From Clostridiales bacterium (lineage in GTDB: Bacteria; Bacillota; Clostridia; Christensenellales; Pumilibacteraceae), in the NCBI GenBank assembly GCA_022508465.1, contig JAFLVB010000004.1:1-58049 (forward strand): a DNA stretch of 58,049 nt. The letters are read 5' to 3'. Below are positions 32,645-37,729 of the stretch, in pieces. The position numbers and the translations under genes are program-made. Position 1 is the first letter of the stretch, and every line of letters starts with the position of its first letter. The notes under the pieces were generated by a model, which was not told where the DNA came from, searched no databases, and worked only from the letters and a program-made list of their open reading frames with translations.

Positions 32645-33009
32645 GGGGGTGTATTGGTTTCGACGGGGTTCTGTAAGGCTGAATATAAGCATGTGGTAGT
32701 GCGGCTACCTTAAAACGCAAATCAAAATAAACGCTAATAATCAAAAAACTGCAAGACCCGCTCTTGCGTTAGCTGCTTAATTTATCTTAGCAGTCGTTAC
32801 ACTGTCTTCCCTGCCGAGGGAGCTGTAATGTCAATCAGGCAGGCTACGGCTGATAAGTAGCGGCCCTCACTTATCAGCGGAATCTTAGGCCATGGGACAT
32901 ATGGATTCGTTTGCTAAAAGTATGTCCTAAGACAATAAGCAAACTAAACATGTAGAAGATTCAGTCAGAGGGATTTCGGAAGGGAGTTCGACTCTCCCCA
33001 CCTCCACCA
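32645..33009 (+). ncRNA. ssrA: Transfer-messenger RNA (tmRNA)
   Basis: The 5' end GGGGGTG pairs with CACCTCC before the 3' ACCA, forming the tRNA-like acceptor stem, and the T arm GGAGTTCGACTCTCC is present. The resume codon is the GCT at 32733. The encoded tag reads ANNQKTARPALALAA and ends at TAA 32778-32780, with the usual ALAA degradation signal. It rescues stalled ribosomes with SmpB. The last 15 nt recur at 33221-33235. Confidence 0.95.
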
Positions 33010-33235
33010 GCAGCGTGACGCTGCACCCATTGTCGCATCACAGCGCAGCGGAAGAGCAAGCTTTATTTCCGCGTAGCAGATGCAGACCATAAATATAAAA
33101 GCTACTCAAAGTAAACCTTTATATTTATTAAACAGGGAACATGCGCAAAAAAGCAGTGGGCGACCCAAGGAGCGCAGTGCTCAGCCGAGCCCAAGGCGAA
33201 CGCCACGAAGTACTGTCCGTTCCCCACCTCCACCA
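33010..33235 (+). repeat. Element bounded by a copy of the tmRNA 3' end
   Basis: TCCCCACCTCCACCA ends tmRNA (32995-33009) and recurs at 33221-33235. Just after tmRNA lies a GCAGCG/CGCTGC hairpin. Just before the copy is the CGAACGCCACGAAGTAC module that is dispersed in the window. Same organisation as behind tRNA-Arg and tRNA-Ser. Confidence 0.65.
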
Positions 33236-33308
33236 CTGAAAATTAATACCCAAAGAGGTGTTATCTTTCGTGTTACAGAGTTCAGCGTTCAAATCACTGT
33301 TCGTGCGC

Positions 33309-33324
33309 GCAAACGTAGTTTGCG
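33309..33324. repeat. Palindromic 16-mer, left copy
   Basis: GCAAACGTAGTTTGCG, identical to 34120-34135. The two copies bracket the 33530 gene. Confidence 0.7.
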
Positions 33325-33529
33325 GTTTACCAAGGTTTCCCCTTGAAAACAGAATATCATCATTATATTTATCTCATATTGAAATGCACATTAATATTTA
33401 TATTATATGAATATAGAATGAACGAATCATTAAAATAGAAGCAGGCAAAGGAATAATCTTGAAAAGTAGGCACAATTTATCCCGAAATACTTTATTAATG
33501 TATAACAATAAATTGGAGCAAATGACAAA

Positions 33530-34117
33530 ATGGACGAACTCAAATTTAAAGGAACAGAAACGCAAGTCTGCAAAAAATTAGTTAAAGCAGGAATTGGCAA
33601 AGACGAAAATGAAGCCAAGCAATTCCTTAACAATTTAATAAGAAATAAACAAATACTTTCTGATAGTGAATCAGCAAATATGGAGTATTATTTTTCATCC
33701 GGTAGCTATAACCCTGGAGTTCACTATTTTATGACACCTTCTTATAATTATTATATTAGTGTTAAATTCACAACAATTTTTATCATTGCTACCATATTTG
33801 ACATTACTTTAACAAAAGGCTTTGTCTCATCAGCAACCAGCTTCCTTGGAATTCAAAAACAAGGCATAGTTAAGCTGGACGAAAATAATGGAGAAAAATG
33901 TATAGCAAAACAGACCGCTCTAACAAAAAATAAAATCGGAACCCAAGATATTTTATCAGAAAATAACGGTCAATGTTGCAATAAAAATTTCAAATGTCAA
34001 TTTAATATTGAAGGTATATGCCATTGCGATAATTCAAATATTATAACAATTTATGAGAACTTAACTCAGAAGGGCGTATTTAAAAAGCACGAAAATAAGT
34101 ATAAATTTAACTTCTAA
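33530..34117 (+). CDS. Small Cys-rich protein of unknown function
   Basis: I do not recognise this 195-residue protein. Residues 1-45 look like a small helical (possibly winged-helix) domain: FKGTETQVCKKLVKAGIGK and EAKQFLNNLIRNKQI. Residues 80-100 are hydrophobic and could be one membrane helix. A Cys-rich segment at about 147-165 (CCNKNFKCQFNIEGICHC) could bind metal. The C-terminus (ENLTQKGVFKKHENKYKF) again looks winged-helix-like. The gene is AT-rich compared with its neighbours and is bracketed by the palindromic 16-mers and by copies of the tmRNA flank, so it is probably mobile cargo. GGAG lies 11 nt before the ATG. Confidence 0.6.
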   Translation: MDELKFKGTETQVCKKLVKAGIGKDENEAKQFLNNLIRNKQILSDSESANMEYYFSSGSYNPGVHYFMTPSYNYYISVKFTTIFIIATIFDITLTKGFVSSATSFLGIQKQGIVKLDENNGEKCIAKQTALTKNKIGTQDILSENNGQCCNKNFKCQFNIEGICHCDNSNIITIYENLTQKGVFKKHENKYKFNF

Positions 34118-34119
34118 TT

Positions 34120-34135
34120 GCAAACGTAGTTTGCG
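34120..34135. repeat. Palindromic 16-mer, right copy
   Basis: Identical to 33309-33324, 3 nt after the stop of the 33530 gene. Confidence 0.7.
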
Positions 34136-34185
34136 TACGCCATTCATTAAATTGATAAAAAATCGATTTAGATTACACTTCTACA

Positions 34186-34275
34186 AGCAGCGTGACGCGG
34201 CCCCCCCAAAATCGCATTTTTACTATGCGGAAACCTAAACATTATTTCCGCGTAGCAAATGCAGATTTGCCACCG
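34186..34275 (+). repeat. Diverged copy of the tmRNA 3' flank
   Basis: AGCAGCGTGACGC, a GCGGAA...TTCCGC stem, TTATTTCCGCGTAGCA and ATGCAGA occur in the same order as at 33008-33092. Confidence 0.65.
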
Positions 34276-34359
34276 ACAAGTCCAATAATTAAACCTAACC
34301 GAACAAATAGGAATGTCTAGGTTACTTTTTAAAATCTTAAATTATATAAGGATACACTA

Positions 34360-35799
34360 ATGAAAAAAAGAAAAAAATTTGGCATGTCATTTCTCATGTT
34401 TGCAATTTTTCTTTTGATTTTATCAGTTTTAATTATTGTTGCAAACATACTTTTACAAGAAAATACCGATTGGAAAGCAATTTTAACCAAATTGCTTAAC
34501 GATATATTATCGGTAGCAATTGTCGGCGTTATTGCAACATTTTTTACTAAAATAATTTCCGATAATTTCTTTAAAATCAAACAAAATAACGATAAATTAT
34601 TATCATTTGGAGTTGAAAAAATCGGCGAAGGAAAATCCACCTCTGAGGATATTATAAACTTATTCGGTGATAAGAAAACAAACACCTATCCATCGGAAGT
34701 TAAAATAATGTTCATAACAGGAAACGGCTTTTTTACTAAATTTAAAAAAGATATTATAGAATGTTTGCAAAATTCGGACTGCACTTTAAAAATCCTTTTA
34801 ATGTCCGCTAAAGATGATAATAAGAATTATGTTGGAAGGTGTGAGGCACTTTGTCCACAAAATACAACGTATTACGATCAGCTAATAGTTACAACATTAC
34901 CTATATTAAATTGTATTGCGGAGCAGTTTCCAAACAGGGTTGAAATCCGCTATTATAAAGACGAATATAGATACAATTTTCGTATAGCAAAGTACAGAAT
35001 TAAAGACGGCACGTTTGACAATATGGCTTGGTTAAATGTTCAACCTTTTAATAAAGATGCTGTTGATTTATCCATAGGTTTAACCGGCAGCTGGAATAGT
35101 TCCGATAAAAATTTGGAAGAAAATATGTTTTACCAATTAGATAAAGGATTTGATTTCATTTGGGATAAATATAAACCCGAAACATTACATGATCAAATAA
35201 AAAATATTTTAATAGAAGAAAGTATCATAACTGAAAATGACGACTGGCAAAAGTTCAACTCAAATCATAATAAGTTACCGAAAAATGTAACAGTAAGAAT
35301 GAATATCTATAATTGCGCTAATAGCAACTTTTACAAATATATTGAGTATACTGAATGGAATACAGCTAATGATTGTTGGGTTGCAATTGGCTTTAACCCT
35401 GCAACTTATGATGTAAATGAAATGGATAAAACTAACTCAAAAATATTTGAAGCGTTACAATCAAATTGTGGTAGCTATATTCTTTTGAATCTTTATCCCC
35501 AAGTTTCAGAAAGTATAAACACTTTTGACGAGTTGGATAATGTAAATAAAAAATTCACCCCCGCTCTTTTGAAAATTTTTAATTTGCTTGAATCGCAAAA
35601 TATCAAAACCGTTATTTTTTGGGGTAGGACGGTTTCATATGATGAAAGTTTCGATAAAATATTGAAGAAGATGCAGAAAAAAGGAATTTTATTTAAAACT
35701 GCAAATAACCAAGGATTATTTTATCATCCTGCAAGAGTAGCTATTAAAATCAAAAAGGTTGACAAATCGGATTTTATGTCTTCTTTTAAACTAAATTAA
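34360..35799 (+). CDS. Two-helix membrane protein with PLD-like middle and C-terminal DUF1643 domain
   Basis: A 479-residue three-part protein. Two membrane helices lie at about 9-30 and 45-66, with a basic N-terminus. The middle (about 110-275) resembles the phospholipase-D-like fold seen in some regulator and effector proteins (LKILLMSAKD, VEIRYYKDEYRYNFRIAK, then FDFIWDKY), but no HxK motif is present, so it may be inactive. Residues 325-475 match DUF1643: WVAIGFNPATYD, YILLNLYPQ, VIFWGR and a final LFYHPAR. DUF1643 has no settled function and is often found in mobile or defence regions. I know of no described protein with this combination. AAGGA precedes the ATG; the gene is AT-rich. Confidence 0.65.
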   Translation: MKKRKKFGMSFLMFAIFLLILSVLIIVANILLQENTDWKAILTKLLNDILSVAIVGVIATFFTKIISDNFFKIKQNNDKLLSFGVEKIGEGKSTSEDIINLFGDKKTNTYPSEVKIMFITGNGFFTKFKKDIIECLQNSDCTLKILLMSAKDDNKNYVGRCEALCPQNTTYYDQLIVTTLPILNCIAEQFPNRVEIRYYKDEYRYNFRIAKYRIKDGTFDNMAWLNVQPFNKDAVDLSIGLTGSWNSSDKNLEENMFYQLDKGFDFIWDKYKPETLHDQIKNILIEESIITENDDWQKFNSNHNKLPKNVTVRMNIYNCANSNFYKYIEYTEWNTANDCWVAIGFNPATYDVNEMDKTNSKIFEALQSNCGSYILLNLYPQVSESINTFDELDNVNKKFTPALLKIFNLLESQNIKTVIFWGRTVSYDESFDKILKKMQKKGILFKTANNQGLFYHPARVAIKIKKVDKSDFMSSFKLN

Positions 35800-35897
35800 T
35801 ATTTCATTAATCTAATTTGATTTACGTTTTAATGCCCTTGCGGACAAAAACTCCACCAATTAACAAGAGGATACCATTACGGTATCCCCTTTTATTA

Positions 35898-36200
35898 TCA
35901 TCGTTTGTTCTTATTCATTGTTTGAAGTAGTTTCAGAATTAAATCACATTCCATTTTATCTAATTTATTCAGTTCTTTTATTATATCTTTGTATTCTACG
36001 GGATATGTCATATCTTCGTCGAAAAATTCTCCGAGCGTTATATTGAAATACTCGCAAAAATTTAATAGGTTTTCAAGTGACGGCATATTGTTTCCATTCT
36101 CGATTTGATTAATGTATTCCGAGCTTTGACCGAGTTCAAAGCTCAATTTTCTTGCGGATATTTTGTGCGCATTTCTAATAGAAAATTCGGGAATTTCCAA
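35898..36200 (-). CDS. Short XRE-family HTH protein, possibly N-terminally truncated
   Basis: A 100-residue protein with an HTH_3 domain: KISARKLSFELGQSSEYINQIENG then MPSLENLLNFCEYFNITLGEFFDE, followed by a short helical tail. The family normally has 10-15 more residues before this point. The only available start is a TTG 4 nt after the upstream stop, with no Shine-Dalgarno sequence. It may be translated by re-initiation after the TIGR04076 gene or may have lost its 5' end at a junction. Confidence 0.65.
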   Translation of the reverse strand: MEIPEFSIRNAHKISARKLSFELGQSSEYINQIENGNNMPSLENLLNFCEYFNITLGEFFDEDMTYPVEYKDIIKELNKLDKMECDLILKLLQTMNKNKR

Positions 36201-36204
36201 TTAT

Positions 36205-36522
36205 TCAATCTGCGTCTTCGCTTAGAGTTTCGAGATAGAAACTTACTGGGCGAAAACCGTCGTTACACGATATCATAGCCGACTTTTTATTCTTCATCCA
36301 GCCGTTATAAAAGTCCTCGCCGCCATAGCTAAGCGTCATAACAAACGGGGAAACACTCTCCCAGGCGCTGTCGCAAAAACCGTTTGGCTTAACCCAGCCG
36401 TTTGCAATAAAGACTTGCCCCACACTCATATCGCAGGCGTGCTCGATAGGGTTCTCGAACTTCTCGATAAGGTCGTCGTATCGCGCCATTCGCATAACGG
36501 TGATTTTTACTTTTTTACTCAA
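36205..36522 (-). CDS. TIGR04076 family protein
   Basis: A 105-residue protein matching the TIGR04076 family: KKVKITVMRM, PIEHACDMSVGQVF, CDSAWESVSPFVMTLSYGG and AMISCNDGFRPVSFYLE. Function unknown; conserved Cys residues suggest redox or metal binding. The start is TTG with GAAGGAG 7 nt upstream. It overlaps nothing and leads into the XRE gene. Confidence 0.85.
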   Translation of the reverse strand: MSKKVKITVMRMARYDDLIEKFENPIEHACDMSVGQVFIANGWVKPNGFCDSAWESVSPFVMTLSYGGEDFYNGWMKNKKSAMISCNDGFRPVSFYLETLSEDAD

Positions 36523-36670
36523 ATCAAAACTCCTTCAAAATAAAAAAATGACCTTTACTCCATACATTATAATATATTCAGCGCTAAATCGCAACTATAT
36601 AATTATATGACTTTTTTGTGCTAACGCTTTTGGTAGATTATTCTAGTCCCGTTAGCTGGAGATAAGATAC

Positions 36671-37729
36671 CTACTTAGTATAAAGTATCGACTTAAATAT
36701 TTCAGGCATATATTTCATTAAAACTTGCTTGTTCTTATCCGTTAGCGCAACAAGCATTATTCCTTCTAACTTCATCAGCTCATTAATATTGTTGGAATTA
36801 AAAATAAGATTCTTAAACCACAGACAAAGATACTCTCCATTATGAATCCATTCAAGATGCTTTACTTCCACCTTTTGTAAATTTGACCATTTTTCTTCAA
36901 TGATATTTTCTCTAAACACCGTAGTTGTACCAATTGAATCCGCATCAACTATAATAACTCTTGAAACATATAATAAAACAAGTAAAAAAATTAACATAAA
37001 AACAAACATAAGACTGCCCCCCGCAATAAATAGCGTATCAAATATCTTATTATTATCAATAGATATCATAATAGCTCCTATTATAAAAGCTATCATGCTT
37101 ATACTAAGAGGAATCGCTGTTATTATTATGGCGCCTTTTCCTACCAAATCTCCATACATAAAGAGCTTAGTTTTTTTCTTTGCCGCCTTTCTTTTTTCCC
37201 TATATAAATCTACTTCCTTCTTATCTAAATCATTTATTTTCACATCTAAATTAGCCTTCATATCATCAGGTAGATATTCTCTCAAAATCTTTCTGTTTTT
37301 CTTGGACGGGACTACCATAACTACACCGGTCGTGGAAGTGACATCTTTAAGGGAAAGGGACATACCCTGATTGTTAAAAAATAAGCATATATAAGCCACG
37401 TTACCGCCTCTTCCTCCGTTTACGCGCCTTATTTCTGTTTTTTGTAAATCAGTCCATCGTTCTTGTTTTAAAGTTACATGGAAAAAAAACGATTTAACAA
37501 TTATTGTTTCAGAATCCAAATAAACAGTTGTTTCATTAATCAATGAAATAACTGCAGAAACAACCAATATTAACGCAATCATGCTAATAATCATACCAGA
37601 TATATAAAGACCATCATTCCCATTGGCAAGACTAAGCAAAATAGCCGCCATTACTCCACATACCAACGAAATTAACATAAACGCGATATAAATACTTTCT
37701 CTAAAACTATGTATTTTAACTTTAGGCAT
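36671..37729 (-). CDS. Membrane protein with two copies of a 2TM plus PH-like domain
   Basis: A 352-residue protein made of two similar halves. Each has two membrane helices (about 12-65 and 200-260) followed by a beta-rich bacterial PH-like domain. Matching positions are VYLDSETIIVKSFFFHVTL / VIIVDADSIGTTTVFRENI, ERWTDLQKTEIRRV / EKWSNLQKVEVKHL, AYICLFFNN / EYLCLWFKN and KNRKILREYLPDDMK / KNKQVLMKYMPEIFK. Internal duplication is therefore clear from the sequence. No function is known; related PH-like membrane proteins may bind peptides or lipids. AGGAGAG precedes the ATG. Single gene. Confidence 0.75.
   Translation of the reverse strand: MPKVKIHSFRESIYIAFMLISLVCGVMAAILLSLANGNDGLYISGMIISMIALILVVSAVISLINETTVYLDSETIIVKSFFFHVTLKQERWTDLQKTEIRRVNGGRGGNVAYICLFFNNQGMSLSLKDVTSTTGVVMVVPSKKNRKILREYLPDDMKANLDVKINDLDKKEVDLYREKRKAAKKKTKLFMYGDLVGKGAIIITAIPLSISMIAFIIGAIMISIDNNKIFDTLFIAGGSLMFVFMLIFLLVLLYVSRVIIVDADSIGTTTVFRENIIEEKWSNLQKVEVKHLEWIHNGEYLCLWFKNLIFNSNNINELMKLEGIMLVALTDKNKQVLMKYMPEIFKSILYTK

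Follow-up and report, generated by a model that had tools for sequence, protein, structure and literature searches.

The pseudo-PLD domains of TrmB, TrmBL2 and FAM83B bind a ligand or a partner and do not hydrolyse. The PADLOC profile Mem_04 describes a protein with two transmembrane (TM) helices that belongs to type III operons and possibly contains a diverged CARF domain. DUF1643 (PF07799) is present on 149 phage records and on 1168 plasmid records, of which 909 come from plasmids predicted to be conjugative. The domain, found on well over a thousand such records, has no known function and, judging by titles and abstracts, none of 13 papers that mention DUF1643 is devoted to its function. 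Among cellular genomes, PF07799 occurs in 17 of 391 from the class and 9 of 378 from the phylum (the genome studied here included), where most of the ORFs that carry it are stand-alone and about 160–240 aa long. Brig1 and Brig3, members of the uracil-DNA-glycosylase (UDG) superfamily, are anti-phage DNA glycosylases (PMC13160076).

A single gene that unites two membrane helices, a PLD-fold domain and DUF1643 was found in the window analysed here, a stretch of 58,049 nucleotides from a Clostridiales bacterium of the family Pumilibacteraceae (contig JAFLVB010000004.1, assembly GCA_022508465.1). The features of the locus are collected in Table 1. The original prediction had proposed an undescribed fusion of two membrane helices, a PLD-like middle without the HxK catalytic motif and a DUF1643 end, in an AT-rich segment beside a tmRNA integration site, and this description is borne out in every part. 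Architecture, HxK loss, DUF1643 membership, foreign composition and islet context are secure, as is the PLD fold at the level of structure prediction, and the protein represents a new domain architecture built from known domain families. Sampling of about 770 genomes from the class and the phylum brought up no second fusion of a membrane/PLD module to DUF1643. The ORF starts with ATG, closely preceded by an AAGGAT sequence that resembles a ribosome-binding site. Its frame is not a product of chance, because 200 shuffles of the 4.9-kb region never exceeded a stop-free run of 146 codons, against 479 codons in the fusion. The codon composition is foreign, with a GC content of 0.29 and a GC3 of 0.27 compared to about 0.54 for purF and guaA.

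Table 1. Features of the fusion gene and of the adjoining tmRNA islet, in positions of the window.
Feature	Position	Strand	Basis
tmRNA gene; its 3' end is the integration site	32645–33009	+	
Exact 15-nt copy of the tmRNA 3' end (32995–33009), TCCCCACCTCCACCA	33221–33235	+	
195-aa orphan ORF, carried by the adjacent tandem insert	33530–34117	+	
Degenerate copy of the stretch 32999–33086, two pieces 82–83% alike	34176–34265	+	
Fusion gene, 479 aa: two TM helices, pseudo-PLD domain and DUF1643 domain	34360–35799	+	ORF, Pfam, AlphaFold2 model, hydropathy
TM helix 1, residues 14–32; K/R-rich N-terminus ahead, predicted cytosolic	34399–34455	+	Hydropathy; positive-inside rule (inference)
TM helix 2, residues 49–67	34504–34560	+	Hydropathy
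PLD-fold domain, residues ~78–286, without HxK; 'RYYKDEYR' signature at residues 197–204	34591–35217	+	AlphaFold2, Foldseek, VIA-align, motif scan
DUF1643 domain, residues 331–457; NP 346–347, D356, T358, N377, G422, H456 and P457 kept	35350–35730	+	Pfam PF07799, alignment
Islet right end: CTCCACCA (35849–35856), short spacer, intrinsic terminator (35869–35887)	35849–35887	+	

Both ends of the protein should lie in the cytosol according to the positive-inside rule, because the N-terminus is rich in lysine and arginine, the loop between the helices has no positive excess and lysines follow TM helix 2. Two family assignments for the helical part were rejected: the SLATT two-helix domain, since the fusion ORF is without any NCBIfam match, and Mem_04/CARF membership, since the TM part alone matches.

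The reading of the middle domain as a PLD fold is well supported by modelling. The AlphaFold2 model, built from an alignment of seven sequences, has pLDDT values of 70–90 across most of residues 90–220; Foldseek ranks the SauUSI restriction enzyme and human BJ-TSA-9 first for it. Aligned by VIA-align to the PLD domain of SauUSI, the predicted structure scores Z 13.2 over 152 residues at 2.7 Å, and the rows that follow (Zucchini, TrmBL2, TrmB, human PLD1, FAM83B and many others) are nearly all PLD-fold proteins, with Z of 10.4–11.6 for TrmB/TrmBL2 and 11.1 for FAM83B. A phmmer search against the PDB returned no matches, and TrmB is the top sequence-profile match at a non-significant E of 0.14. 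In a motif scan for the HxK(x4)D catalytic motif, HxK was absent from the PLD part of the fusion and from all seven relatives; a catalytic PLD nuclease or lipase was rejected on this ground. The place of HxK is taken in seven of the eight members by a signature of the type (R/K/H)-x-(Y/F)-x-(D/S)-E-(Y/F)-(R/Q), and the eighth (L068) has a related NTEIRNP stretch at the same position. Because the fold is kept while a new conserved signature replaces the catalytic motif, the domain appears to have been repurposed for binding rather than to have decayed.

Pfam recognises the DUF1643 tail clearly, at E = 9.6e-11 and with 42.3 bits where the cut-off is 22.5, over profile positions 6–133 of 134. D356, N377 and H456, strictly invariant among 27 aligned DUF1643 proteins, are all kept, and the well conserved N346, P347, T358, G422 and P457 are likewise present. 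The tail is nevertheless a divergent member, since it has K326 in place of an otherwise universal arginine, and A348 and Y350 in place of the S and A of NPSxA; the arginine ahead of the core and the S/A of NPSxA form no part of Pfam's definition of the domain. Elsewhere, DUF1643 is fused to an ADP-ribosylglycohydrolase in L111:70-1980 and lies divergently beside a macro-domain gene on plasmid NZ_CP114608.1 (L119), two cases that hint at a link to ADP-ribose or nucleotide chemistry. Two further DUF1643 proteins (L044:570-1463 and L048:1384-2346) have in common a conserved, cysteine-containing C-terminal extension.

By its motifs and, weakly, by its predicted fold, DUF1643 may be related to the UDG superfamily. 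The motif order (GxNP, a strand ending in N, G, then HP) resembles that of the superfamily, and when the DUF1643 and UDG family 4 profiles are aligned, their NP, N, G and HP motifs fall in register. P values from hhalign to UDG families 1 and 4 are mostly 0.008–0.13, compared to 0.11–0.22 for a PLD control, while a sequence-profile search of DUF1643 against the PDB gave chance-like matches only. The DUF1643 model, with a mean pLDDT of 59, has a UDG as its first Foldseek match (E 0.01), and family-4 UDGs fill its first two VIA rows, with Z of 5.9 and 5.8 that hardly exceed the scores of SAVED domains and hydrolases. On the whole these comparisons lean weakly towards the superfamily and are no more than suggestive.

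Relatives of the N-terminal module are rare. The full protein was found in one of 74 family genomes, its own. Searched against 396 genomes of the order, its N-terminal 330 residues have strong relatives in G394 (70% identity), G324 (32%) and G413 (34%) and weaker ones in G187, G089 and G301, with G536 added by a profile; relatives of the N-terminal 290 residues thus number three strong and four weaker, in uncultured Clostridia and their kin. A scan of a genome contig collection recovered the same three strong relatives, from uncultured Clostridia or Clostridiales. Pattern scans of viral contigs, and a first scan of genome contigs, gave no confirmed relatives, and tblastn of the full fusion protein and of the relative L006 against phage and plasmid collections gave no matches. 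Two relatives, L005 (CANQND010000065.1) and L006 (JAFLVM010000001.1), are complete at about 290–303 aa and end past the PLD domain. Their intactness marks the DUF1643 tail as an addition, and implies that the N-terminal module works alone and that DUF1643 adds something to it. The closest relative, L004 (CAMWIL010000022.1; 70% identity), is truncated by the contig end, and a search for its missing tail elsewhere in the same genome gave no match.

The fusion gene lies in the last of several probable insertions behind the tmRNA gene, whose 3' end recurs downstream. The only clear second copy in the genome of the stretch 32999–33086 is the degenerate block at 34176–34265, which is read as the junction of two tandem insertions. 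In most sibling species a terminator-like hairpin stands directly 3' of the tmRNA CCA, the same arrangement as at 35849–35887, so that the native tmRNA terminator has most likely been displaced downstream by tandem insertions spanning 33010–35856, the putative exact ends of the islet. The argument for the right end depends on the terminator behind it, as the 8-nt copy CTCCACCA is not significant by itself. Within these limits lie a 226-bp unit without an evident gene, the unit of the orphan ORF, which has no homologues in the 74 family genomes, and the unit of the fusion gene. The ORFs of 33010–35856 include none of recombinase size and none that matches a recombinase. Adjoining the islet, an AT-rich minus-strand segment (35898–37729) encodes an XRE-type HTH protein, a TIGR04076 protein and a membrane protein of four helices that matches SLATT weakly. 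In sibling species similarity stops exactly at the tmRNA 3' end and the flank varies, which makes it a variable hotspot. It carries a type I restriction R subunit (L073:1-2697) in one case, a CAP12-type TIR protein together with a Bro-N protein (L075:1059-5096) in another, and a reverse transcriptase (L076:2070-3233) in a third; a BspA-type LRR protein also occurs in these sibling flanks.

The relatives occupy comparable sites. The L006 gene is the single gene of an islet of ~1 kb (L070:9319-10392) directly behind a tRNA-Val/Glu/Met cluster; the islet is bounded by a 45-bp direct repeat, 91% alike, that includes the tRNA terminator, and has no recombinase inside. About 1.1 kb separates the L004 gene from the tRNA-Val gene ahead of it, the last 20 nt of which recur exactly within 200 bp. 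Between the duplicated tRNA-Val end and the L004 gene there is an undecaprenyl-diphosphate-synthase-like gene (PF01255; L069:942-1547). The relative in G536 follows a tmRNA gene whose end recurs in part (14/20 and 15/20, where shuffles reach at most 14). Altogether, a tRNA or tmRNA gene whose 3' end or flank is repeated precedes four of the eight loci. This exceeds expectation, with a binomial P of about 0.002–0.013 for a roughly estimated background of 8–13%. The family thus shows repeated placement of single-gene cargo behind tRNA and tmRNA genes without a recombinase of its own. Among the direct neighbours of the relatives are toxin-antitoxin-like genes, a Rep_1/IS91-like protein and an HTH regulator, and the relatives sit outside conserved housekeeping contexts.

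What the protein does can be proposed only tentatively. The explanation held most probable, with confidence short of even, is a membrane-tethered, cytosol-facing conflict protein in which a pseudo-PLD module for sensing or assembly is coupled to a glycosylase-like effector; it may plausibly act against phages or in other conflicts with mobile DNA. The protein would reside in the inner membrane with both ends in the cytosol, as the single-gene cargo of a small islet inserted behind the tmRNA gene. Its two N-terminal helices would act as the tether, and the PLD-fold domain, having lost the catalytic HxK, would sense or assemble by binding a ligand, a nucleic acid or a partner, in the manner of the TrmB effector domain and the FAM83 pseudo-PLDs. 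The effector would be the DUF1643 tail, most likely as an enzyme of UDG type that acts on bases or nucleotides and is stationed at the membrane where foreign DNA enters. Topology, glycosylase-like chemistry and defence role are the inferred components of this scheme. The last is made credible by Brig1 and Brig3, which are precedents within the UDG superfamily for anti-phage glycosylases (PMC13160076). Against the scheme stand the weakness of the UDG link (mean pLDDT 59, Z below 8, tied with SAVED and hydrolase folds), the single instance of the fusion, the loss from its tail of the universal arginine and the S/A of NPSxA, and the neighbourhoods of the relatives, in which no dedicated defence genes were recognised. 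The original prediction had considered a membrane-tethered effector or immunity protein plausible; its interpretation is supported in part, and such a role is still plausible, with the restriction subunit and CAP12-type TIR protein at the sibling tmRNA site on one side and the survey of genes beside the relatives on the other. A narrower version of the conflict scheme is doubtful: a membrane-anchored DNA or nucleotide glycosylase whose pseudo-PLD captures incoming DNA or a signal and whose UDG-descended DUF1643 removes (modified) bases at the point of entry. Such a protein would correspond to Brig-type immunity but be stationed at the membrane, and single-gene islets behind tRNA/tmRNA genes, free of a recombinase, would spread it.

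The chief rival, possible though on the unlikely side, assigns the effector role to the helices themselves. Binding of a ligand to the pseudo-PLD domain would make them form a depolarising pore, as in two-helix effectors controlled by CARF domains or cyclic nucleotides, while DUF1643 would modify or remove the ligand or serve as a second sensor. The layout of two helices followed by a globular domain suits this mechanism, as does the existence of stand-alone 2TM-PLD relatives. Residues N47, D48, S51 and G56, at or near the start of TM helix 2, are invariant in the four closest members, and the helical part scores to Mem_04 at E 1.5e-5 for L004 and 0.0033 for the fusion protein. However, that similarity is confined to residues 12–80, with the globular domain outside it, and no nucleotide cyclase or CRISPR gene was recognised in the neighbours scanned. 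Moreover, by hydropathy some distant members (e.g., L008) appear to have one helix only, so a two-helix pore is not a constant of the family.

It is rather unlikely that the gene serves the mobile element and not the host, through superinfection or entry exclusion, counter-defence or maintenance of the islet. The very small islet on which it sits, and the wide occurrence of DUF1643 on phages and conjugative plasmids, presumably to their own benefit, would agree with such a role, but the islet is without a replication, transfer or recombinase gene. In orphan islets at tRNA genes the cargo is usually selected by the host, which also counts against this alternative.

It is improbable, too, that the fusion arose recently, or the islet is a decaying remnant, and that selection maintains no function in the DUF1643 tail. 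This alternative and the preceding one keep some probability, as a single genome is known to have the complete fusion; several family residues are lost from the divergent tail, and the evidence for selection covers residues 1–253 only. Over that part the comparison with L004 gave a dN of 0.21 with saturated dS, as expected of a constrained protein, and the N-terminal part is judged to be under purifying selection from this alignment. On the other side, the frame is open through all 479 codons, GC3 is alike in the two halves of the gene (0.267 and 0.273), and all strictly invariant DUF1643 residues are kept.

The least probable alternative is a membrane protein that simply senses a metabolite or lipid, akin in use to the sugar-binding pseudo-PLD of TrmB. 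It draws on the place of TrmB/TrmBL2 among the best fold matches and on TrmB as the top, though non-significant, profile match, but such a housekeeping sensor was judged very unlikely given sporadic presence, foreign AT-rich composition, the integration-site context and the absence of conserved metabolic neighbours among those seen.

For DUF1643 at large, fewer hypotheses need to be entertained now that the domain is seen naturally joined to a membrane anchor and an inactive PLD domain. Combined with the UDG-like motifs, the fusion points to glycosylase activity on modified DNA as a possible function, with N377 and H456 as candidate residues.

The systems most similar to the protein include L005, L006 and the truncated L004, with which it shares 31–70% identity over residues 1–285, the TM pattern, the DEY(R/Q) signature and the lack of HxK; L005 and L006 are without a DUF1643 tail, and that of L004 would lie beyond its contig end. 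Its two-helix region is weakly similar to that of Mem_04 from type III CRISPR operons, whereas its globular domain is dissimilar and CRISPR genes were not recognised in the four neighbouring ORFs scanned, which gave no cas-like match. With the pseudo-PLD domains of TrmB/TrmBL2 and FAM83B (DUF1669) it shares the PLD fold at 10–15% identity, but these proteins have neither such a membrane anchor nor DUF1643. Brig1 and Brig3 may share a UDG ancestry and a phage-related setting with it (PMC13160076), although their homology to DUF1643 is putative and neither a membrane anchor nor a PLD domain is reported for them. Finally, the DUF1643 proteins of phages and IncC-type plasmids likewise carry the domain above the curated cut-off and keep D, N, H, NP and HP; most of these are soluble proteins of about 160–240 aa, whereas here the domain forms the C-terminus of a membrane-anchored pseudo-PLD protein.
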